Shown one piece after another: positions 9,148 through 62,747 of a stretch of DNA of 64,000 nt. Positions within the stretch are counted from its first letter, which is position 1. Every line of letters starts with the position of its first letter. Location: positions 1,550,001 to 1,614,000 of the forward strand of contig NC_063150.1 in the NCBI RefSeq assembly GCF_020921035.1, given 5' to 3'. The notes below the pieces were generated by a model. The model ran no database searches, was not told the DNA's origin, and was given only the letters and a program-made list of their open reading frames with translations. Made by a program: the position numbers and the translations under genes. Source of the stretch: Rhodamnia argentea (lineage: Eukaryota > Streptophyta > Magnoliopsida > Myrtales > Myrtaceae).

Positions 9148-12100
9148 CTACCTATTGCATGGGAACTCCGAATCGCTCTCGGTTACTTTGAAGGGCTGAG
9201 GATTCTCGCCGCAGCAGTAGAGATTCCACATCTTGAAGTATGCCCGCTCGAGGTTTCTCACCTGGATTTTGATGTTTGTTTAAATAGATCAATCAATTGA
9301 CCCGAAAAAGCTTACAACATGCAGGTGCAATGAAACCAGAAACAGAAATCAGGGGAATTGCCAAGAAATAGAGCTCACCCATCGGGTTGTGTCAAACAAA
9401 GGGCAAGTCAGACGAGCTGCCTTAAGCCTACTTTTAAGATCCTCGAGCTTCAGTCGGTTCAATGCGAGTGAAACCGCTTTCTCTTCATATTCCTTCAGAC
9501 TGTCGGATTGGATCATTTTAGTCCCAGAAAGCAATGTAAATACATCAGCAGCGAGGATGGAATAGGGGAATATGATACTTAATGATAGCGTACCAAGAAT
9601 TTACACAACCATCTCAACCAAACTACAGGTTGCAAATGCAGTGCACACATGAGGACTTGAAAGTTGTCAAAAAGTCAAACTACCTAATAGTCTACTCAAT
9701 GATGCACACAAGAGAACGAGTATGCCAACTAAACCAAATATAGTAGTAATGGCAGGACTACCATAGAAATACGACCTTTTCCTCTTCATGGAAATAACTC
9801 ATTCATACAAAACACGTGTGTGGGAGAGAGAGAGAGAGAGAGTGCGAGTGTGTACCTATTAACAATCATCTCTTCCCCAACTCCAGTAGCCAGACATAAT
9901 GAACCTGCAACTCTTGTTGCCATTTTCTCAAGGGGAAGCGTCACCATTGGAAGACCAGCCCATAGAACATCAGTGCCCGTTGTGTGAGCATTACATAGAG
10001 GTCTGCCCACATAGTAGCAAAATGCGCAATAAATTCCTTTTATCTTTGGCATAAATCAAGACAGCCAATGAATAAGTTAAAGAATCTGTCCGCCAATGGA
10101 AACTACATTTCAATTTTTTTCTTGGCGAGAATGGGAAGAAGCTAATGAAAGATATCTCACGTGTCAAGGAACAGATCTGCTAGAGCACTGCGCTTTATAT
10201 GCTCATTTTTCATGGCAACATCTGTGAAAATAATTTGATCAGGTTGCACACCCCTTTGAGTAGCATCTGCCAGAGAGAAGAATTTTTAAATTGATATTCA
10301 CCCAGTGACCAAGATCGAATATCGAAGAAAGCATCCATCAAACATAACATGATATTTTCAAACGGCACAATGTTGGAGAAAAACACACATGCACGGAGTC
10401 TGGTTTCGCCTGCTGCAGGGAATCGGAGGAGCCAAAGTGCACTGTTGGGTACACGTTTGAGAATATTGCACCTATTACGATGACAAAGACAGATCAAACA
10501 AGTTAAAACATCTCCTAAGGATGAACTGCCGAAAAAAAATAACCAAACGATGTGGCATTACCAAGTGTTGACAATATCAGGATCCATCTTGTAAAGCTGA
10601 TTGAAACAAGCAAATATGAATTTGTCCTCAGGTAATCCATAATCTGATCTTTTTGAATGGCAACTGGGGTCCAATACTTCTCGGTTTTTCTGATAATGAT
10701 TATTGCAATAAAAGGAAGGTGTTAAAATACACTCCATCAATAGTTCACCAAAAGAAGATGAAACAAAGTGAAAATGACTGACCTGCTTATAATCATTAAC
10801 GAAGTAACAATGAGGAAGATGGACAATCTTCTCAGAGTAGATGTGTGAGAAATGAAAAGGCGACACAAACTGCAATTGAAGAACTTGAAAGTCAATAAGT
10901 TGTATCTTCGGGTGACAGAGACAAGAAATACCAAAATATAAATGAAATTGTCAACCTCATCTGTGACCAAATAATGTATATAAGATGCCCCCGTTGTTCC
11001 AGGAAATCCCATGTATGATATTTGTATAGGAGCAGGTTGCATGGCAAATATTTCATTTCTTGCCCCCTGCGGGCAAAAGAAGTGGTTTATTATGACTTTG
11101 ACGGGAAGTAATATCAATCACAGAAAAGGGTGAAAACAAAAATCATGCAGATTGGAGAAAATAAGGATTTGTCAGGAGAAAAGCAGCCTGTCGTACTAGT
11201 ATTTCATTAAAGATCCAGGTCCAAATCATATAGCATGATAGATGTTAATGATGATACCTATAAATATGGCTCTCAATTACAGATGATATACTGCAAAATC
11301 ATACACACAAGCACCATACCTTTGTGTAGCCATTTAAATTGACAAGAATCTGAATTTTATGTTCGTTAATTAGCCTCGCAATCATGTCAGAAGTCATGGA
11401 GGAGACATCAATGAAGTGCTCTGCTTCTGACTGTGTGCGAAGTCTCCATTCAGTTCCATCATTGGGACTCAACGCATAACAGAAGACCTACAATATATCA
11501 ACTATTAGATCAACAAAGCGACGCAAAACCAAGCCTATACTTTCACATCGAACAAACCTCAATGTTTTCTCTGTCATGCATGCCAAACACTGAGCCCATG
11601 AGGTGAGACAAGGGATGATTGCCAAAATCACTGCTTACATAACTGAAAATCAAGGATGAGATCTGTCAGTGACAACCTCACGGAAAGAATGATCGCTTCA
11701 GGCAGTGTACACACATGCGAAATAGACTAAGGTTCTTTTTTAGTTTTGTTTTTGTGGTGGGGAAGGCTTACCCAACCCTTAGACGTCCACTCCCACCATC
11801 ACTCTTGACAGGATATTGTGCAGGATAGTTGAAAGGAGGAAGCGAGTAACGGGATGCAACAAGAGCACTGTACGCAGCATATTTGCGACTACAAAAAAAG
11901 AGAATTGTGAAAAAAACCGCTACAGCACCTTTTATTCACTTAACAGAAAAGGCAGCATAACTCACCTAATTTCAAGTGCAAGCATTGGATCAAGGGGATA
12001 GGCTATCGCGTGAAAAGGCTGTACACTCGGAATCACTGACATCTGAAAGTAGTATATGGGCACAATTATAAACCAGTTGAATGTATTCTTTACAAAAGCC

Positions 12101-13413
12101 GATATAGATGTATTTACGTATGAGAAAAGATAAATTACCTACGTATGACAAAAGAAAAATTACCTTAATCTGTCTCCTCAGTATTCCTTCCACTTCAGAA
12201 AACTTTTTCTCTCGATCTTCCCAGTCACAAACACACTAAAATAATGGTCAAATCAAGAAAATAAAGATGTAAGCATTTAACATGAAACAATGATGATCAA
12301 ATGCATTAGGTTGCCTGTACTATTGAACTCAACTCGACAATCCTCAAAAATAAATTGATTTTCAAAACTAACTTTATGAACTATGAAGATGTATAACAAA
12401 AGATAGAATTGGACTTCCTCAGGAACTTAAAATGTCCCTGCTTACAGTCCCATCTCCACAATATCGCAATATGACATGTCCACTACTCAGAATGCACTCC
12501 GATTGAATTTTCACTAAATATCTCCAAACAATCTCGCAGAAATTATTTAAAGCCCAAACTGCATTCGTCAGGCAAATATCAATTATGTGAAAGCATGCAA
12601 AACCAATCACAATGAGCGAGCGAATAACCTCCCGCCCAAATCTCGTGAACTTGATCTGTAACACATGAGCTTTCATCACTGCATGATGTCTAATAGAGAA
12701 GTTCTGATAGTTCAGCCATGGACAATATCAAATCAAAGAGATCGCACCAGATCATCTTGAGACCATTACATCAACCCCAAACTATCTTATTATAGTCCTA
12801 CTTGTCAGAAACCGGAAAGATAAAAGTCAACCAATTTACAAATTACAAGATGAAAGTTTCCCTGTTGATAGGTGCAAGTGCACTTCAGCCTCACCTGCTG
12901 TATGTAAAACCAAGGGCAAAAATGGGAGGAGAATGCAGTCATTACGATACCTGCAAAGTATGCAGAAGGTTGCAAGTTGCTTCTGGAAAATCAGGACGAA
13001 GAGCTAGTGCTTGCTTGTAGCTCTTTATAGCTGGTTCAACATGTCCACTGATTCCCAGAAAACCAGTAAGAATCCTTGTATAGCTGTAGAAAAGTCTCAA
13101 GAGACATCATAAGTAATCAAACTACTAAACCTGTCCTTATAAGCTGATGCTAGATTTGCATGAGCCTCAGCCATTGTGGGTCTGATGTTAATTGCGCGAA
13201 CATAGTCTTGAATGGCTTCACTAACCCTTCCAATCTCCTTGTATGTGTTACCACGGTTGACAAGCCCATCAGCTGCCATAGGATCAATTCTCAGAACTTC
13301 ATTGTAGCACGAAATTGCATCGGCATAGTTACCCTGTGATGGACCACAATAAAAGAATAAAAAAGACAGCAACAAATTAGACCTCTTTCCTTGCAGAATG
13401 ATCATCTACCCGG

Positions 13414-29438: not shown

Positions 29439-31509
29439 TTAGTTGGCTTTAATCTTCCCCTTCATTATGTTTAAAACTTCATCAATATCATTGGCTATGG
29501 CCACCAAGTCTCTTGCGATCCCCGCCAATCCTTGCTTAGAAAACCCGGCACAGTAAATGTCATTCTCTCCCTTCCAATGATGTGGGCACGGGCGTTTCGG
29601 CATCCCATCTTTGTTCAGCATGTCTTCGTAGTCCCGTATGCGTTCAACAAATGTGTTCCTTCGGTTAGAAAGTATGAGAGAGCGAATAGCATGATAATTT
29701 AAATATTATGATTCACTACTAGAAAAATTATCATATAATTATTACTCAACGACTTGTACAATATAGCACAAATCATTACAGTCAATTAACCTTAAACTAC
29801 TCGTATTTGATCAGCAAAGCAAATGCCATATCCATTTCAAAAGGCTGAAAATGTACATAGATATGCTTTCCTTCAATGAAAAGGAGCGTAGCTTGCAAAA
29901 CTACCTATCTATTCATGAAGTTCAATGCTATAAACTTTGTATTGTGGTGCTCTATTATTTGCTTGGACCAACCTTGAGCTAGTAATTTGCAGTACTCTTG
30001 TAGCCTATTGCAAAGATAATCCCATCGAATTGCTTAATAACACGGTTCTCAAATACCACATTATTACCATCAATCCTCACAATTCCAGGAAGAACCTGCA
30101 AAAAGATTAGAATGATCAAAGCCACCTTGGTTATAAATTGTCAAAACATAAATGATCCGTAAACACTTTTGCTTTGTAGGATTGACAGAAATAAACATGG
30201 ACAAAATGTCAATAGTATATGTAGCTTTTACCATAATATCTCCAGATTGAATTTTCTTAACCGTATCAATGTCAATTACTGGAGATTTTCCACAAGCCAC
30301 TTTTAGGTGAAATGGGCCTTTAGCCGGTCTACGGATCCCATGCCTAGTCAAATCGCCATACCAAAGCTTCCCAAGAAATGTCACCACAGCATCGGTGTCT
30401 GTCATCGGGACGTACTTGGATAATAACATTCCGATGTAAACCATTTCCTTGTTGAGCACATGAAACTGCAATAAGTTGCACAATTATATCAGTAGATCAT
30501 TGTCCATTTGCTTTTCTCTCTCTCTATCAATAAAAAAGTTGAGGGATTGACCAAATTATTTTGTGATTGAAATTGTTCATTTGCTTTTGCTATAAATGCT
30601 AGATATTCACTTAGATTTTGCAATCCTCTGCCAAATTGAGACTCAAAATCTCATTAAGAAGGTTTAGAAGAAAATATCATAAATGCAAATGGAAATTATA
30701 TGAATACCTAACATGTTAAAAGGTAAAAAAAGACTTTGAATTAGGTCAAGTCCATGCCATTCATGCCCATTCCGGGGGGCAAGATTCAAATTTTTTTTTT
30801 TTAAAAGGGGACTGAAATCAATTAATGAGAAAAAAAAATGAAGCAAAAATGACAGAAGACAGAAAAAAAAAGGTAAATAGAAAAGACATCGTACTGGGTT
30901 CCTAATCACAATTGAAGTATGAGCACCAAAGTTTGATAGATCATAGCTAATTATCTCCATCCCTGAATTTCCACACCCAACTGCTAAACCTTCTTTGTTC
31001 TCATAGTCTTTCTCGGATTTATACTCGCTCGAATGGACGATCTTTCCTTCAAAGCCGTCCAACCCAGGCAACTCGGTGATAAAACCCTTGCCGTTTTCAC
31101 CCGTTGCCACAACCAAGAACTGGGCCATATAGACCTCCTTCTCTTGGGTCAACGTGTTCCTAGCATCAACCCTCCACTTCCTCTCCTTCTCGACGTACCA
31201 GCCTGCTTTGACGGAACGACAGTACCGGGGCTTGATACCGAACTTGGAGATGTAAGAGTCGATGTACTCGACGAACGAGTTTCTGGATATGAAGGTAGCG
31301 GACGACGATGCATGGGCCATGTAGGGCAGTGAACAGAATTTTTAAGCAAGATGGAGGTTCAAGCGATCATATGATCTCTTTTTCCACGGTGAGGCATAAT
31401 AGTCTTCTTTCTCTAGAACTATGCTTGGAATCGATAGGTGAGATAAACAATTGGAGACCGCTGGGCCTGAAGGGCCAGCTCCTACTATCAGCGCCACCAC
31501 CTCGTCCAT
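29439..31509 (-). pseudogene. YUCCA10/11-like flavin monooxygenase with two nonsense codons
   Basis: YUCCA enzymes convert indole-3-pyruvate to auxin (IAA) using FAD and NADPH. Exons: 30895-31509, 30232-30465, 29973-30095, and a last exon from about 29660 to the stop at 29439. The FAD motif is [10 protein letters not shown] and the NADPH motif [28 protein letters not shown] and the C-terminal AGFSKQGLAG are all in family order. Two codons are nonsense: TAA at 31342-31344 right after HLA, and TAG at 29979-29981 where Trp is expected (ANY*LK). Otherwise frames and splice sites are intact, and introns are kept, so this is a recently disabled gene copy rather than a retrocopy. The family ATGY motif reads AIGY. 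Sequencing error at two sites is the alternative. Confidence 0.87.
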
Positions 31510-44380: not shown

Positions 44381-44608
44381 TCATGTCGACTTGTATGACA
44401 CGTTTGCGTGGTGTGAGCGAGCATGCTAGTTAGATCAAGCTCCAAAATGAATAGACAACCTCCTATTACGGCAATACATCTCGTTGTTGTTATACATGAG
44501 AGTTTATTCACTTGCAGAAACATAAACCTAATTTTCCACAAGATGTTACAAATATAAAACCAGGTAGAAATACAAAAGCAAAGGAATAACAGGTGAAGTA
44601 CTAGCATT

Positions 44609-46012
44609 CTAGTGACCATCTGCTTCCATTTGGATCTCCTCCAAGAATGCCTTGAGATTCCTATCCGACGAACCACCTTCTTTGGCAGCTGCTCTTGCCA
44701 GTCCCTTCCACTTCCTGGCATTCCTTCTGATTTCCTCCCCCTTTTCTCCATCGCCCATCACCAATTCCAAGCACTTTTTGATCTCATCTCCTTCCACGAT
44801 GCCTCTCTCGTTCGTGTTCACCCTCACCCCAACCTTCCATTCATTCTCAACCAGCATGGCATTGGTTTGCTGGTCACCCCATTGTGGGAATGCCACCATT
44901 GGGACCCCACAAGCCAAGCTCTCAAAGGTTGAGTTCCAACCACTGTGAGTCACAAAGCAGCCTGCTGAAGCATGGGAGAGCACCTCCACTTGAGAGCACC
45001 ATGGCACTATCATTCCCTTTTGCTCCAATTCCTCCATACAGCTCAATTGTTCTTCATCTCCCTCTCCTTCCTGTTCTTTGTCCTTCCTAATCACCCACAA
45101 GAACGGACGGCCAGTGCCTAGTAACCCCCGCGCCATCTCTTCCTTTTGTTCCTTGGACAGCACGGAGATGCTTCCGAATGATATATAGGTCACCGAACCT
45201 TTGGGCTTGGTGTCTAGCCACCGGACGTAATCTTTCGAACCCTGGAAGAGATCGCCTCCGAAGGATTTATCCAGGGGATCTTGTCCGTCCAAGAACGCGG
45301 AAGGAATTAGCGGACCAATCCCGAACATGGTAATGTTGCCAATGGCTTTTAATGCTTCAGGCTCTAGCGCATCGAAAGTGTTCGCAAGTACTCTTGGATT
45401 CTTCTCTTCCTTGAATACTTCAAACTGCACTTGCATTAGAGGCAGAGTAAAAGCATATTGGTTTTCGGGTGTCAAAAATGAGGGGACATCGCGGCAAGTT
45501 AGACGCGGCAATCCCGGTAAGTGGAGTGATGCCGAAGGATCGTCCTTACCTAGGTTTCTGATAATATCACCATAACCATTGAAATAGTAGTAATATATAT
45601 CAAGAAGGGCTGCAGGCTGAGCCCAAATGAGTGTTGAGGGGATTTGAAGAGAATGGGCCACCTGAGCGACCCAAGGAATGACCGTGGTATAAAATATGCA
45701 CGCGAATTTGCGGCCATCGCTGAGGCTAGTAACGACAAGGTCTCTTAGAGTTTCCGAACCCAGTCGCTCTACGTCGGCCATGTACTGCTCGAAGTCGATC
45801 CCAGGCCTGAGCCCCTCCTCGGAGCCGTCGGAGAAGGAGGCAAAGGACAAACCTTCGGGTGGGTCAGACTTGGCCATGCGGCGGTAAGCCAACGAGGCGG
45901 TGGCGAAGGTGACACGAGCGCCCGCGTTTAGAAGACGCTTGGCAAATTGGAGGGCTGGGTTGATGAGGCCTTGGCCTGGGAATGCTACTACAAGATAATT
46001 GAGGGGAGCCAT
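44609..46012 (-). CDS. UGT75-like UDP-glycosyltransferase, tandem copy A (catalytic His replaced by Leu)
   Basis: Family 1 UGTs glucosylate small lipophilic acceptors with UDP-sugars. UGT75 relatives include anthocyanin 5-O-, crocetin and other carboxyl/hydroxyl glucosyltransferases. Intronless, 467 aa, full family length. The PSPG box starts WCSQVEVLSHASAGCF and ends VAFPQWGDQ, with Trp22 and Gln44 that favour UDP-glucose; it has HSGWNST where HCGWNST is usual and HAS where HPS is usual. The UGT75 signature IYYYYFNGYGD is present. The N-terminal loop reads FPGQGLINPALQ where the family reads FPAQGHINPALQ, so the catalytic base histidine (residue 16, codon 45965-45967) is Leu. It is 94% identical (28 differences) to copy B at 49086. 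The frame is fully open, with a TATA box upstream. The acceptor cannot be predicted. Confidence 0.95.
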   Translation of the reverse strand: MAPLNYLVVAFPGQGLINPALQFAKRLLNAGARVTFATASLAYRRMAKSDPPEGLSFASFSDGSEEGLRPGIDFEQYMADVERLGSETLRDLVVTSLSDGRKFACIFYTTVIPWVAQVAHSLQIPSTLIWAQPAALLDIYYYYFNGYGDIIRNLGKDDPSASLHLPGLPRLTCRDVPSFLTPENQYAFTLPLMQVQFEVFKEEKNPRVLANTFDALEPEALKAIGNITMFGIGPLIPSAFLDGQDPLDKSFGGDLFQGSKDYVRWLDTKPKGSVTYISFGSISVLSKEQKEEMARGLLGTGRPFLWVIRKDKEQEGEGDEEQLSCMEELEQKGMIVPWCSQVEVLSHASAGCFVTHSGWNSTFESLACGVPMVAFPQWGDQQTNAMLVENEWKVGVRVNTNERGIVEGDEIKKCLELVMGDGEKGEEIRRNARKWKGLARAAAKEGGSSDRNLKAFLEEIQMEADGH

Positions 46013-46097
46013 GGTTAAGGGCTGATGCTATACTTTTTTTTCTCTCTCTCTCTTTCTTTTTGAGTTTTTGGTGCAAGAATAGAGCGTTCCTTGCTAC

Positions 46098-46107
46098 TTA
46101 TATATAC
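46098..46107 (-). promoter_or_regulatory. TATA box of UGT copy A
   Basis: Minus-strand TATATATAAG lies about 86-95 bases upstream of the ATG, in a segment conserved at copy B and at the orphan promoter near 51.15 kb. Confidence 0.7.
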
Positions 46108-46397
46108 TAACTGGGACTTGAGGGGATGGCATAGACGACGACGAAAAAGAGAAAGCAGCTGTCGTACGTTATTACGCATATGCATGTTTTAAGTGATAAA
46201 GTATTGTTTGATTTCGACCTCTTTGTGTTGAGGTTGAGTTTCATTATTCTCAAGGTTAGAAGAAGCGAAAATCATATATGCTTCTCTGCTTCTCATCTTG
46301 GATAAGGCATACATAATTCAAAATATAATGAATGATGGGTTGGCCAACCTTTTCTTAATATTTGCATAATTAGCGATTAATTAATCTTTCTTAATAT

Positions 46398-46400
<3 letters not shown>

Positions 46401-46476
<76 letters not shown>
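46401..46476. repeat. Compound (CT)n(CA)n microsatellite in the UGT A upstream region
   Basis: About 22 CT units followed by about 16 CA units. The equivalent site upstream of copy B (50895-50911) has only a short CT run, so the expansion followed the duplication. Confidence 0.9.
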
Positions 46477-46479
<3 letters not shown>

Positions 46480-46812
46480 CATTACTTGGTCAGATTGAAG
46501 TGTTTTACTGCATTTTGGCTTTCTTTGTCCTATGCTCGAGTCATAACAAAATCATGGGGGGACTTCAACACCTACCAGTCCGAAAAAAAAAAATCAATTT
46601 CATATGCGACAATTTCTATGTTCAGGAAAGCAGTTTGCAAATTCATTACAATGAATCATACTCAAAATAAATCATGAGCATAATACCCTCAAATATCTTA
46701 GAATTGGAATGAGTTTCGCAACGGATCACAAAATCTCCAAGATAAACAAATCATTTTGTCTATGATTTGGAATAGGACAAAGGTGGCTGGATAGGTATTG
46801 ACTAGGCCAGGT

Positions 46813-47903
46813 CGACAATTATCAAAAAAGCCATAAACTTATTGTACGGATATTAATTTAGTTCCAAACTTTTCAATTTGGCCAGTTTTGTCCTAAATCT
46901 TTTGACGGTTTGCTAATGTAGTTGTTTTCGCCAATAGTGTGTCAAACGGATGAGTCGAGGTTTGGTTTGGGTCGGGTCAAATATAGTCCGACCCATATTA
47001 ACTCATTTAACCCTTTTGACCCATTTTCATACAGTACAAATCTAATAATCCATATCCAACCCGACCCATATTACTTAAACACTTTTACATTTAACCCAAC
47101 CATGGAATATTTTTCTTATAGTTTATTAGGAAAATGCAGTGGTTGGCGGTGATGGGGGACGGTGGCAGTGTTCCAAAAAAGTATCACATTTTTTTTAATT
47201 TTATTTTTTTCTTTCTTTTACTTTTAAAAATAAAAAATAAAAGCTAATATCTTGAGGCCCTTTTACAAGTGGTGCTTAGGAAGCTACAAGTCATATACCA
47301 AAAATGGGTCGAAAATTGATTGGGTTAAGACCCTATTTTAAATTTGCTGAATTCATATATGATTGAAGTGAATAAAAGTGGATGAAAAACCAATATTGAC
47401 ACCTCTACCTGTCAATTTTGGAAAAAAATTACTGACGTGATGATTTAGTCGGCGCCGTTTGTCTTACGTGATACAATCGATGCTTATATTTTAAATGTTC
47501 GTAATTTTCTTTCTTTATTTTCTTTTTATTTTTATTATTTTTATTTATTTCCTATTTTCTCCACCTGTCGCGAGGCCCGGGTGACCTCTATCGGCCACAT
47601 CCGAGGGCTGCGACTTACTCTCAATAGCCTTGTCTGATCCAACAAGGGTCACTCTTCTCACCCCCTCACCCGAGGCCGACGAGGACGTCCCGACACTCAC
47701 CTGTGGCCGATGACCTATGCCGGAGATTAGAGGAGGTAAATAGAAAAAAAAAAAACGAAATAGGAAACGAGAGAAAAAAATAAAATAAATGCAAAAATTG
47801 TCCACATGAGCATCAGCCGTGCCACGTAAGACTTAATTGGCAAAATTAAAAAATTTCTGATTGAACTGGTATCCATACAATAAGTGTAGGGGTGATTTTC
47901 CCT
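46813..47903. mobile_element. MULE-type element with nested hAT-like MITE and GC-rich core
   Basis: Left arm from 46813 and right arm to 47903 are inverted relatives: shared words are ACTTATTGTACGGATA (left) and ACTTATTGTATGGATA (right, reverse complement), then 'tttaatttggcca'-like words. Within it, 46935-47406 has GTGTCAA..TTGACACC ends and 'gggtcgggtc'/'gacccat' subterminal words, a nested MITE. 47565-47735 is a GC-rich core. This insertion-rich block separates the two UGT copies. Confidence 0.62.
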
Positions 47904-48860
47904 TTTTGTGCAAGTGAATCAATTGCTTCTTGTTCACAAAAAAAAAAAAAAAATCAATTGCTTCTTCTACTGTTTGTAAAAGTTGAAGCGTTCATCCGCT
48001 ATAATTTGAAGAAGGTCGTAAATTGACCACTCTACATTTTTATGGATGGATGAAAGCCTCGAACCATTAGGATATTATTCATTTTTGCCCATACGTAAGA
48101 TTGTGCTTTTTCTAACACACCACGTATAGTTGTTTGGAGAGTGAAATCACATGTTACCCAAAACGTATAACGGATGGATGATGAGAATTATATGTGTATG
48201 ATGATCGATCGATGCTTATGTTCTAGCACTCCTCACAATTTTTAATTAATGCACAGACGGACACAAACACAAAATGACTATCTGAAGGCCCATAGATCAT
48301 GCTGCAAGTGTCATGAACTAGTCACATTTAAGCTTTTAGCCTGTCCGAGCGGCTACTCAAATTCCCACGTATGTTAGTATAGTTTATTTTACTTAGGATA
48401 GTGAATTGATTATAAATATTATGAAATTCTAGAATTAAAAGTAGGAGTGATCGGTTCCCAATCTGGTCCCACCTAAGAACCGAAATCAAACTAGGAGGAC
48501 CGGTTCCCAGTATCTGAAATCGGAAATCGAACTGGTTCTCAGGCGGTTCAACGGAACCGATGGACGTCGAGCTGGAGAGGATGAACTGTTGAAGGGGTTG
48601 TTGGAGTACTGCAACCTGTCAACGAGGAGAAAAGGGGTTGGAATCGGTTCACTTGATATCAACTTTGGTCTACATGCCACCAAACCTGGGCGTGCAACTT
48701 CGGAAGGAGGTACAGAGGAACAAAGTTAGATACTATGCCAGACGCGCCTGAGGAACTTTGGGTTTGGTTCATTTCTCTCAAAACCCAACATGGTGCAATG
48801 CATCGGGGATATCATATATGTAACAGTTGCCCCTAAAAAAGAGATAAAATCAGCCCACAT
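47904..48860. other. Intergenic DNA between the UGT copies
   Basis: Holds an A-run with short flanking repeats (47926-47965) and a 'cggttcc' dispersed repeat fragment at 48440-48560. No gene. The UGT duplication boundary lies near 48860. Confidence 0.45.
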
Positions 48861-49085
48861 TCTGACTTGTATGGCACATTTACAAGGTGTGAGCGAGCAT
48901 GCTAGCTAGATCAAGCTCCCAAATGAACAGACAACCTCCTATTATTGCAATACATCTCATTTTTGTTATACATGAGAGTTTTATTCACTTACAGTAACAT
49001 AAACCTAATTTTCCCCAAGATGTTACAAATACAAAACCAGATAGAAATACAAAAGCAAAGGAATAACAGGTGAAGTACTAGCACT

Positions 49086-50489
49086 CTAGTGACCACCTGC
49101 TTCCATTTGGATCTCCTCCAAGAATGCCTTGAGATTCCTATTCGATGACCCACCTTCTTTGGCAGCTTCTCTTGCCAGTCCCTTCCACTTCCTGGCATTC
49201 CTTCTGATTTCCTCTCCCTTTTCTCCGTCTCCCACCACCAATTCCAAGCACCTCTTGATCTCATCTCCTTCCACGATGCCTCTCTCGTTCGCGTTCACCC
49301 TCACCCCAACCTTCCATTCATTCTCAACCAGCATGGCATTGGTTTGCTGGTCATTCCACTGTGGGAATGCCACCATTGGGACCCCACAAGCCAAGCTCTC
49401 GAAGGTTGAGTTCCAACCACTGTGAGTCACAAAGCAGCCTACTGAAGCATGGGATAGCACCTCCACTTGAGAGCACCATGGCACTATCATTCCCTTTTGC
49501 TCTAATTCCTCCATGCAGCTCAATTGATCTTCCTCTCCCTCTCCTTCCTCTTCTTTGTCCTTCCTAATCACCCACAAGAATGGATGGCCGGTGCCTAGTA
49601 ACCCCCGCGCCATCTCTTCCTTTTGTTCCTTGGACAGCACGGAGATGCTTCCGAATGATACATAAATCACCGAACCTTTGGGCTTAGTGTCTAGCCACTG
49701 GATGTAGTCTTTCGAACCCTGGAAGAGATCGCCTCCGAAGGATTTGTCCAGGGGATCTTGTCCATCCAAGAACGCGGAAGGAATTAGCGGACCGATCCCG
49801 AACATTGTAATGTCGCCAATGGCTTTTAATGCTTCGGGCTCTAGCGCATCGAAAGTGTTCACAAGTACTCTTGGATTCTTCTCTTCCTCGAATACTTTAA
49901 ACTGCACTCGCATTAGGGGCAGACTAAAAGCATATTGGTTTTCTGGTGTGAAGAATGTGGGGACGTCTCGGCAAGTTAGCAGCGGCAATCCCGGTAAGTG
50001 GAGTGATGCCGAAGGATCGTCCTTACCTAGGTTTCTGATAATATCACCATAACCATTGAAATAGTAGTAATATATATCAAGAAGGGCTGCAGGTTGAGCC
50101 CAAATGAGTGTTGAGGGGATTTGAAGAGAATGAGCCACCTGAGCAACCCAAGGAATGACCGTGGTATAAAATATGCACGCGAATTTGCGGCCTTCGCTGA
50201 GGCTAGTAACGACAAGGTCTCTTAGAGTTTCCGAACCCAGTCGCTCTATGTCGGCCATGTACTGCTCGAAGTCAATCCCAGGCCTGAGCCCCTCCTCGGA
50301 GCCGTCGGAGAAGGAGGCAAAGGACAAACCTTCAGGGGGGTCAGACTTAGCCATGCGGCGGTAAGCCGACGAGGCGGTGGCAAAGGTGACACGAGCGCCC
50401 GCGTTTAGAAGACGCTTGGCAAATTGGAGGGCCGGGTTGATGAGGCCTTGGCCTGGGAATGCTACTACAAGATAATTGAGGGGAGCCAT
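49086..50489 (-). CDS. UGT75-like UDP-glycosyltransferase, tandem copy B (catalytic His replaced by Leu)
   Basis: Same family and length (467 aa, one exon) as copy A. The N-terminal loop again reads FPGQGLINPALQ, so Leu stands where the catalytic His is expected (codon 50442-50444). PSPG box: WCSQVEVLSHASVGCF to VAFPQWNDQ, with Trp22 and Gln44. The 28 differences from copy A are uneven: 3 in the first 168 residues and 25 in the remaining 299, which suggests conversion of the 5' half or relaxed or diversifying change in the 3' half. Homology extends into both flanks, so the duplicated unit is about 2.2 kb. The open frame and promoter argue for an expressed gene; catalytic competence is doubtful or altered. 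Confidence 0.95.
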   Translation of the reverse strand: MAPLNYLVVAFPGQGLINPALQFAKRLLNAGARVTFATASSAYRRMAKSDPPEGLSFASFSDGSEEGLRPGIDFEQYMADIERLGSETLRDLVVTSLSEGRKFACIFYTTVIPWVAQVAHSLQIPSTLIWAQPAALLDIYYYYFNGYGDIIRNLGKDDPSASLHLPGLPLLTCRDVPTFFTPENQYAFSLPLMRVQFKVFEEEKNPRVLVNTFDALEPEALKAIGDITMFGIGPLIPSAFLDGQDPLDKSFGGDLFQGSKDYIQWLDTKPKGSVIYVSFGSISVLSKEQKEEMARGLLGTGHPFLWVIRKDKEEEGEGEEDQLSCMEELEQKGMIVPWCSQVEVLSHASVGCFVTHSGWNSTFESLACGVPMVAFPQWNDQQTNAMLVENEWKVGVRVNANERGIVEGDEIKRCLELVVGDGEKGEEIRRNARKWKGLAREAAKEGGSSNRNLKAFLEEIQMEAGGH

Positions 50490-50573
50490 GGTTTAGGGGT
50501 AATGGTATAAACTTGTTTTCTTCTCTCTCTTTCTTTTTGAGCTTTTGGTGCAAGAACAGAGCGTTCCTTGCTC

Positions 50574-50584
50574 CTTATATATAC
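50574..50584 (-). promoter_or_regulatory. TATA box of UGT copy B
   Basis: Minus-strand GTATATATAAG, about 85 bases upstream of the ATG at 50489, equivalent to the copy A site. Confidence 0.7.
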
Positions 50585-51045
50585 TTACTGGGATTTGAGG
50601 GGATGGCATAGACGATGACGAAAAAGAGAAAGCAGCTGTTGAATGTTATTACGCATATGCATGTTTTAAGTGATAAAGTACTATTTGATTTTGAACTCTT
50701 TGTGGTTCCACTAAATTATTGAGGTTGAGCATCAATATTCTCAAGGCTAGAAGAAGCGAAAATCATGAAGGCTTCTCTGCTTATCATCTTGGATAAGTCG
50801 TAGATAATTCAAAATATAATGAATGATGGATTCGCCTACCTTTTCTTAATATTTTCATAATTAGTGATAAACTTGTCTTAATATATTATCTAGCCCTCTC
50901 TCTCTCTCTCCCACGTTTCGTTACTTGGTCAGATTGAAGTGTTTTACTGCACTTTGGCTTTCTTTGTCCTTTGCTCAAGTTATGACAAAATCATGGGCGG
51001 GCTTCAAAACCTACCAGTCCACTGCATCGTCGCATACACAGACCA

Positions 51046-51600
51046 ATGTGAGGGGAACCATGGTTAAGGGCTGATGCTATACTTTTTTTCTTTTCTCCCT
51101 TTCTTTTTGAGTTTCTTGTGCAAGAATTATAGTGTTCCTTGCTCCTTATATATGTACTTACTGGGATTTGAGGGGCTTGCCTATATGATGACGAAAAAGA
51201 GAAGGTAGCTGCTGAATTTTAGTACGCATATGCATGTTTTAAGTGACAAAGTATTATTTGTTTTGCCCATCAACAAAGAGGATTGTTTGAATTGGTATTC
51301 TCTGGGGTTCGTCAAAGATGTTGAGGTCGAGCTTCATTATTCTCAGGGCAAGAAGAAGAAGCCAAAACAATGACAATGATATGTACTTCTGCTTCTCAAC
51401 TTGGATAATTCACAGATAATTTAAAATATCATAAATTTCGGATTGGGTTATCTTTCCTTACTGTTTTTCATCATTACATAAGCTCCGTCTCTCCGTCTCT
51501 CGTCAGACCGAAGTGTTTCATTTCATTTTTGGCTTTCTCTGTCCTTGCACGGTCGTGTACCGTGACGCAATCATGGGGTTTTCAAAACCTACCGGTCCAC
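51046..51600 (-). pseudogene. Orphan third copy of the UGT promoter and start codon, body deleted
   Basis: From the start-codon context (minus-strand ATGGTTCCCCTCAC; compare ATGGCTCCCCTCAA in copies A and B) the sequence matches the upstream regions of A and B: 'aagggctgatgctatac', a TC-rich tract, a TATA box at about 51148-51157, 'gatgacgaaaaagagaa' and 'cgcatatgcatgttttaagtg'. Only about 15 codons follow the ATG before a stop, and none are UGT-like. A third tandem UGT therefore once stood here and lost its body. Confidence 0.82.
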
Positions 51601-61349: not shown

Positions 61350-62747
61350 ATGGTTCCTTCCCACTTTCTCCTCGTAGCGCTCCCGAACCGCGGTGCTATG
61401 AACCCGGCCCTCCTGCTGGCTGAGCGCCTCGCGCGCGTCGGCAGTCACGTCACTTTCCTTACCACCGTGTCCGCCCACCGCCGCATGATCAATCCGGTTC
61501 GCCTTGAAGGTGTAACCATTACCACGTTCTCTGATGGCTATGACGACGGGCGTAAGCCAGGGGTTGACTCCGAGCGCTTCTACGCCGAGATGGAGCGCCG
61601 GGGGTCAGAAGCTCTTAGTGGCCTCATCAAGTATAGTTTTGGACGAGGCCTCAGGATCACCTGCGCACTCCACACGGTGATCCCTTGGGTCGACGACGTT
61701 GCTCGCTCCTTTCAAATCGAATCCGTTCTCGTTTGGATTCAACCCGCTAGCGTGTTCAGCATATACTACTATTACTTCAATGGCTATGAGGATGTGATCA
61801 AGAACGTTACAAGCCAAAGCTGTGATACCTCGTCGCTCATCCGGTTGCCCGGCCTACCACCACTAACCAACCGTGACGTCCCCTCCTTTTTCAACCATGA
61901 AAACAAGTATGCTTTTGTTCTGCCAAAATTGCAAAGCCAATTCGAGCAGCTAACAGAGGGGGGGAATACAAAAGTAGTACTTGTGAACACCTTCGATGCG
62001 CTCGAACTCGAGGTATTAAGAGGGATCGGTACACTGAATTTGGTCGGAATTGGGCCTGTTGTCCCGCTCCGTTTCTTAGACGCACAGAATGATAATTCTT
62101 CTGATAAATCTTCCAGAGGCGACCTCTTTCGGGGCTCTGAGGATTATTTTCAGTGGTTGAATTCGAAGGAGGAAGCATCGGTAATTTATGTAGCCTTTGG
62201 AAGCATGGCGACGCTATCGAAGGCGCAAAAGCGAGAAATGGCGTGCGGATTGCTAGAGACCAGCCGGCCATTCTTGTGGGTGATAAGGGAGAGCGATGGA
62301 GATGATGATGAACTCATTCACAAAGAGGAACTAGACAAGATAGGAGTGATAGTCCCATGGTGCTCTCAAACCGACGTGTTGTCGCATCCTTCGATAGGAT
62401 GTTTCCTCACTCACTGCGGGTGGAACTCGACACTCGAGAGCTTGGCGTGCGGCGTTCCAATGGTGGCATTCCCCCAATTTGGCGACCAGATGACGAACGC
62501 GAAACTCGTCCAGGACGTGTGGAAGGTCGGGGTTCGAGTGTCCGAGATCAATGAAGAAGGCATTAACGTTGAGGGAGGCGAAATCAAGAAGTGCTTGGAA
62601 TTGGTCATGGGAGGTGAAGAGATAGGTGAAGGAATCAGAAGGCATGCAAAGAAGTGGAAGGATTTGGCCATGGAGGCTTTCAAGGAGGGTGGATCTTCGG
62701 ACAGAAATCTCAAGGCCTTTGTTGAAGAATTCTCAAAAGTAGATTAA
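61350..62747 (+). CDS. UGT75-like UDP-glycosyltransferase C (catalytic His replaced by Ala)
   Basis: Intronless, 465 aa, opposite strand to copies A and B and far more diverged, but sharing the UGT75 signature IYYYYFNGYED and VLVNTFDALE. The PSPG box runs from WCSQTDVLSHPSIGCF to VAFPQFGDQ, with the standard HCGWNST, Trp22 and Gln44, pointing to UDP-glucose use. The N-terminal loop reads LPNRGAMNPALL where the family reads FPAQGHINPALQ: the catalytic His is Ala (codon 61395-61397) and the neighbouring residues also differ. The frame is fully open, with TATA box and poly(A) signal in place, so it looks like a maintained gene rather than a relic. Acceptor unknown. Confidence 0.95.
   Translation: MVPSHFLLVALPNRGAMNPALLLAERLARVGSHVTFLTTVSAHRRMINPVRLEGVTITTFSDGYDDGRKPGVDSERFYAEMERRGSEALSGLIKYSFGRGLRITCALHTVIPWVDDVARSFQIESVLVWIQPASVFSIYYYYFNGYEDVIKNVTSQSCDTSSLIRLPGLPPLTNRDVPSFFNHENKYAFVLPKLQSQFEQLTEGGNTKVVLVNTFDALELEVLRGIGTLNLVGIGPVVPLRFLDAQNDNSSDKSSRGDLFRGSEDYFQWLNSKEEASVIYVAFGSMATLSKAQKREMACGLLETSRPFLWVIRESDGDDDELIHKEELDKIGVIVPWCSQTDVLSHPSIGCFLTHCGWNSTLESLACGVPMVAFPQFGDQMTNAKLVQDVWKVGVRVSEINEEGINVEGGEIKKCLELVMGGEEIGEGIRRHAKKWKDLAMEAFKEGGSSDRNLKAFVEEFSKVD

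Follow-up and report, generated by a model that had tools for sequence, protein, structure and literature searches.

UGT75-like glycosyltransferase genes of Rhodamnia argentea with other residues at the site of the catalytic histidine

The N-terminal histidine that acts as general base is a textbook element of the inverting UDP-sugar glycosyltransferases (UGTs) of plants. A stretch of 64,000 nucleotides from Rhodamnia argentea (contig NC_063150.1, positions 1,550,001 to 1,614,000; hereafter the window) holds two tandem UGT genes, A and B, that encode leucine at this site, and raises the question of what such a protein does, or whether it is a transferase at all. The absence of the histidine in A and B is real and unlikely to be an artefact, purifying selection acted on the branch along which it was lost and afterwards, and the residue is also replaced in relatives of the pair, in a way that places the origin of leucine at two points of the tree at least. 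As for the chemistry, we infer that A and B may encode constrained transferases that work independently of a base, most likely on N-acceptors or acceptors ionised beforehand, a reading to which a probability of about 0.48 is assigned.

Two intact tandem genes under purifying selection

Both genes are open from ATG to stop and carry the motif FPGQGLINP, which includes Leu16. The CTC codons reported by the sequence-only reading were found at the same positions when the DNA was read again, as were the complete frames and good PSPG donor boxes that it had described (Table 1). The two proteins are 94% identical, and they belong to a tandem duplication of ~2.06 kb that includes the flanks and is 92.8% identical over 2060 columns. 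A base-call error at codon 16 was considered and judged unlikely, because A and B agree at this codon in spite of 65 differences between them (Nei-Gojobori count, NG86), and because CTC is also found in a third gene elsewhere, F. A piece of the A/B 5' flank occurs a third time, with a TATA-like stretch and an ATG context, and is likely the remnant of a further tandem copy that was deleted. A CT/CA microsatellite at about 46401-46475 is long in the 5' flank of A and short in that of B, a difference that could be a source of divergence between the two promoters.

The genes match the GT1 family and have its plant donor box. A, B and C, another UGT of the window, score 84.7, 83.8 and 96.7 bits against PF00201 (GT1/UDPGT; curated cut-off 19.5 bits; A and B scored without the initial Met). 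The donor residues expected of a plant UGT (W, Q, HxGWNS, E and D-Q of the PSPG box) are present in all five genes A to E of the local cluster, and in A and B the alignment shows W338, Q341, H356, G358, W359, N360, S361, E364, D380 and Q381 intact. In a tree that also contained three other UGTs of this genome, the nine UGT75-like genes grouped together as a clade (support 100/100). The name UGT75 (group L) is likely for A, B and their relatives, as their residues correspond to those described for the tea enzyme CsUGT75L12. Among the solved structures matched by A and by E (the best 60 of 114 each) no chain is named UGT75; most are named only glycosyltransferase, and UGT74F2 and UGT74AN1 are included.

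What departs from the canonical inverting plant UGT is the catalytic site. The N-terminal histidine is replaced by Leu, Leu, Ala, Ser and Leu in A, B, C, D and F, respectively. The Asp that partners it (D119 of VvGT1) is Thr in A to D, in E and in L056, and Ser in L046, L069 and L071, all of them UGT75-like; since this position is Thr or Ser in 9/9 UGT75-like genes, no aligned member of the family has a complete His-Asp dyad. When A, taken without its initial Met, is set against the solved UGT chains shown, Leu16 lies opposite His in the first and third chain and opposite Ala in the second, and Thr109 lies opposite their Asp.

Measurements of selection indicate that these proteins have been kept. 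A check of the ratio of nonsynonymous to synonymous rates (dN/dS, or omega) had been proposed by the sequence-only reading, and its outcome for A and B, which differ by 36 synonymous and 29 nonsynonymous changes, is 0.222 (95% interval 0.134-0.379), with a probability under neutrality of 1.2e-8. The corresponding values are 0.351 (0.259-0.476) for C and D, and 0.32 (0.17-0.59; 200 codons, P neutral 9e-5) for F and its His-bearing relative L056, all comparisons with F being based on 601 bases of this gene. A branch codon model (a custom script run on nine genes and 454 codons), whose values for A/B and C/D roughly match the pairwise counts, gave omega of 0.192 for the background, 0.158 for the A/B stem, 0.267 for the A/B tips, 0.223 for the C/D stem and 0.399 for the C/D tips; omega = 1 was rejected for each of these stems and pairs of tips separately (likelihood-ratio statistics, LRT, 25.8 to 38.6). 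Therefore, with intact frames and neutral rates rejected, the marks of a pseudogene are missing. Relatives with His do exist in this genome, but they are not accompanied by pseudogene-like rates in the Leu genes, the combination that had been named in advance as evidence against a functional change.

These data bear directly on the idea that A and B are relaxed relics, that is, young tandem copies that have lost their function and are yet to decay. The same cluster does contain broken UGT copies between D and E and beyond E (including C1:1626660-1627649 and 1641069-1641899), and omega is raised on the His-less branches. However, omega stays far under 1 on stems and tips, and the frames are intact where neutral drift mostly yields stops: in a simple neutral simulation of point mutations, a copy of A bears a stop with a probability of ~0.97 after half the A-B synonymous distance. 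Moreover, A has changed no faster than L056 (46 versus 41 unique changes), so that relics are a very unlikely explanation.

One further fragment of the cluster, L010:8401-9000 (C1:1632401-1633000), is a broken UGT reading FPSYGHINPALKFA in which the His is retained; its similarity to A and B is weak (34-35% over about 140 residues).

Recurrence of the loss within the family

The sequence-only reading described a His-less tandem pair. The pair stands, but the loss is not confined to it, as C, D and F also lack the His. In C the codon is GCT (61395-61397), within the motif LPNRGAMNP, and the protein also has Arg14 and Phe378 (numbering of A). The genome (346.7 Mb in 74 contigs) was searched with protein A, which returned at least 12 open frames of nearly full length that are ≥59% identical to it and one more at 45%. 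The UGT75-like frames form two clusters on one contig, at 1.59-1.64 Mb and 14.47-14.60 Mb, 13 Mb apart. Residue 16 is His in eight of the 13 open frames and another residue in five (Leu in A, B and F, Ala in C, Ser in D).

In a wider census, 53 of 59 readable UGT N-terminal stretches hold the His. These 59 remain from 62 rows after removal of the duplicates L006 and L007 and the gapped L066, and among them are some fragments and a single broken copy; L035 was scored as His, its motif being PAIGHL, with a G printed through a one-column shift. Both this count and the 13 UGT75-like frames are lower bounds that cover the best-scoring candidates and the local cluster. The six stretches without His are those of A, B, C, D, L040 and L041, F having been discovered afterwards. 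L040 (C3:2045000-2048800) and L041 (C7:8167800-8171600) are intact UGTs of another kind, of 535 and 496 residues, with Asn (PAIGNLVP) and Gln (PGIGQLVP) at the His site.

The position of F in the tree is what reveals more than one loss. F is 86% identical to L056 over 200 residues and 59% identical to A, and it is joined to L056 as its sister with support of 100/99; a topology that groups F with A and B was rejected (approximately unbiased test, p-AU 0.0006). Because F pairs with a gene that holds His, and because its union with A and B is rejected, the sequences place the change from His to Leu at no fewer than two points of the tree. A short gene-conversion tract may instead have carried the Leu from one cluster to the other, but the codons that adjoin it in F are GGT and ATA, as in L056, and not GGC and ATC, as in A.

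In total, the His was lost two or three times at least: a topology that unites A to D, with a single loss among them, is not rejected (p-AU 0.061), and the best tree, in which A/B are separate from C/D, attaches the His-bearing E to C/D at only 67/55. Apart from a gappy column (314), which was set aside, only columns 16 and 225 are invariant in five His genes and altered in all of A to D. Column 225 (numbering of A) changes from Asp to Gly in the four genes, Gly being found in 0/5 of the aligned His genes, which hints, contrary to the best tree, that A/B and C/D may have had one His-less ancestor. Other changes are specific to a pair: Gln14Arg and Trp378Phe in C/D, and Pro348Ala and Cys357Ser in A/B, where the box reads HSGWNS instead of the HCGWNS of the other ten aligned rows.

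What a UGT without the histidine may do

Copies that are intact but lack the His probably act on a different type of molecule, or else hold a sugar donor and catalyse no reaction. According to the first of these, A and B would be working UDP-sugar transferases of the UGT75 kind, constrained at the level of the protein, in which the N-terminal residue is no longer a general base. The enzyme would place the UDP-sugar and the acceptor side by side, and the attacking nucleophile, most likely a nitrogen, or else an oxygen that is strongly acidic or ionised beforehand, would require no removal of a proton by residue 16. With Leu16, this end of the pocket would become apolar and disfavour phenols in need of deprotonation. 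In C (Ala) and D (Ser), with Gln14Arg and Trp378Phe, the pocket may have been remodelled in another way.

Functional UGTs devoid of this His are already known, and A, B, C, D and F add a variety to the His-less kind; A, B, C and D combine a replaced His with an intact frame, as do UGT76C and UGT2B10. In UGT72B1, the mutation H19Q leaves half of the N-activity (a 2-fold loss) and lowers the kcat of O-glucosylation to 1/300 (reported in PMC8558338). Arabidopsis UGT76C2/C3, functional plant family 1 UGTs in which Cys naturally replaces the catalytic His, favour N- over O-glycosylation (PMC12246196); unlike the genes described here, they have Cys rather than Leu, Ala or Ser, retain the Asp partner, use cytokinin-type acceptors and belong by name to a different UGT family. 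Human UGT2B10 holds Leu at the His site, as A, B and F do, and seems to be specialised in N-glucuronidation (PMC7781194), although it is an animal glucuronosyltransferase and the parallel is limited to the residue. These three precedents support N-acceptors for A and B. No natural plant UGT of the Leu type is reported in the excerpts of the literature matches listed. Soybean GmIF7GT, an isoflavone 7-O-glucosyltransferase, is cited as independent of the His (PMC4188811, PMC5517534), with disagreement as to whether it is "devoid of" the residue or its His15 is unimportant; unlike what is proposed here, it O-glucosylates isoflavones.

The closest comparison is CsUGT75L12, a flavonoid 7-O-glucosyltransferase of tea. 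Like A, B and F, it has a Gln two residues ahead of the His site, and like A to D it has Thr (T151) where VvGT1 has Asp119; its Q174 and Y182 may correspond to Q132 and Y140, which were matched by counting residue numbers alone. Its wild-type residue is His56, in contrast to the natural Leu, Ala or Ser of the R. argentea genes. The mutant H56A is more active than the wild type, H56L is inactive with kaempferol, and Q54 has been proposed as a possible basic residue, its mutants being weak (PMC5517534). Since H56A works and H56L does not, the Ala of C recalls the working mutant and the Leu of A, B and F the dead one, as far as kaempferol is concerned. The role of the His, which the sequence-only reading had taken as the established base for deprotonation of the acceptor, is thus not strict in this family; in CsUGT75L12, Thr also occupies the site of the Asp partner. 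The same reading had suggested carboxylate acceptors as an excuse for the loss, a suggestion that is weakened by UGT74F2: the favoured reaction of this enzyme is the formation of a glucose ester, the proposed role of its His, in a protonated state, is to hold the carboxylate, and its H18A mutant is inactive (PMC5397973). As a whole, the earlier interpretation is partly supported.

Three other accounts of the same sites have to be weighed. In one of them, Gln14 of A, B and F, or another residue, would serve as base or orienting group and ordinary O-glucosylation would persist. The retention of Gln14 in these three genes is in line with it, as is the proposal made for Q54 of the tea enzyme. However, glutamine is a poor base, C and D carry Arg instead, and the H56L mutant is dead in spite of the Q54 it holds, all of which renders this account rather improbable. 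Alternatively, residue 16 might be nearly free to drift in this family, its replacements being chemically unremarkable. Three different residues replace His in five of 13 frames, H56A is active and the Asp partner is absent from every aligned member, as drift would allow; nevertheless, the His is kept in the other eight frames and in 53/59 of the wider census, and H56L is far from neutral, so that drift is hardly to be expected.

The remaining account, in which A and B are pseudoenzymes that have lost transfer and are retained for UDP-sugar binding or regulation, is unlikely but deserves more attention. The donor residues are intact, as a binder needs, constraint is strong, and H56L and H18A abolish activity in CsUGT75L12 and UGT74F2. 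On the other hand, the higher activity of H56A indicates that the role of the residue as a base is weak in CsUGT75L12, no non-catalytic plant UGT of such a kind was found in the excerpts of the literature matches listed, and the different replacements in different genes, together with the other pocket changes of C and D, fit a change of acceptor at least equally well.

Several observations also weigh against transfer to N- or pre-ionised acceptors. Purifying selection means that the protein matters and says nothing of catalysis. The inactivity of H56L concerns the very residue found in A, B and F. In UGT76C2/C3, replacement of Cys by Ala reduced N- and increased O-glycosylation (PMC12246196), so that an inert residue is not simply better for N-acceptors, and in an insect UGT the change from His to Leu lowered O-glucosylation and yielded no N-activity (PMC7781194). 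The pooled His-less branches have an omega of 0.269 versus 0.185 elsewhere (LRT 7.6), and the B tip alone reaches 0.408; the slightly raised tips are not peculiar to the loss of His, because those of L046/L069, a young pair with His, stand at 0.236. C and D have more unique changes than L056 (73 versus 41 and 66 versus 36), as does E with its His (71 versus 31). An AlphaFold2 model of A, computed without the initial Met and with an alignment consisting of the three UGTs of the window, was unusable, with a mean predicted local distance difference test score (pLDDT) of 37.9 and a predicted template modelling score (pTM) of 0.31.

Surroundings of the genes and meaning for the family

Ten other open reading frames (ORFs) of the window were scanned against Pfam, of which eight gave a match (flavin monooxygenase (FMO)-like, PPR, two pieces of AAA ATPase, Tic22, cystatin, a GT41 piece and TPR repeats). 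Nothing in this sample of ten ORFs points to a metabolic gene cluster, and the neighbours therefore give no hint about the acceptor. The FMO-like exon looks YUCCA-like and would thus be related to auxin synthesis; its presence near relatives of UGTs that glucosylate acids is probably a coincidence. The gene with TPR and GT41 pieces is presumably an O-GlcNAc transferase of the SECRET AGENT kind.

Table 1. Coordinates of the UGT genes and of other features, numbered within the window or, with the prefix C1, on the contig
Feature	Coordinates	Strand	Remarks
Gene A	44609-46012	-	One-exon UGT, 467 aa, Leu16 at the catalytic His site
Codon 16 of A	45965-45967	-	CTC (Leu)
PSPG donor box of A	44870-45001	-	W338 to Q381; coordinates derived by hand
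Duplicated unit holding A	44382-46423	.	Sequence match to 48858-50910
Gene B	49086-50489	-	One-exon UGT, 467 aa, Leu16 at the catalytic His site
Codon 16 of B	50442-50444	-	CTC (Leu)
PSPG donor box of B	49347-49478	-	Coordinates derived by hand
Duplicated unit holding B	48858-50910	.	
Third copy of the A/B 5' flank	51035-51265	.	TATA-like stretch and ATG context, without a UGT frame
Gene C	61350-62747	+	Intact one-exon UGT, 465 aa, Ala16
Gene D	C1:1615525-1616922		First UGT outside the window; FPSRGSINP, Ser16 (TCT)
Gene E	C1:1636935-1638323		FPSQSHINP, His kept
Gene F	C1:14583920-14585299		FPGQGLINP, Leu (CTC); open frame without stops, found by motif pattern
Flavin monooxygenase-like exon	30664-31341	-	PF00743
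TPR and GT41 gene pieces	10561-13405	-	PF13844 at 10561-10950, TPR at 13100-13405

The absence of the His tempts annotators to call such a copy dead, and this case cautions against discarding genes of this type as pseudogenes. The Leu, Ala, Ser and His versions found in close paralogues of one genome constitute a natural experiment on the role of the residue, and the Leu/His sisters F and L056 render glycosyl transfer without a base directly testable. The part most worth following is this matched pair together with the repeated loss of the His in one family of one genome. More speculatively, and with doubtful prospects, the UGT75 clusters of this lineage may repeatedly and adaptively discard the catalytic His and arrive at Leu in parallel, which would create a base-independent class whose acceptor chemistry is new (N-glucosylation being one example), a plant counterpart of human UGT2B10.

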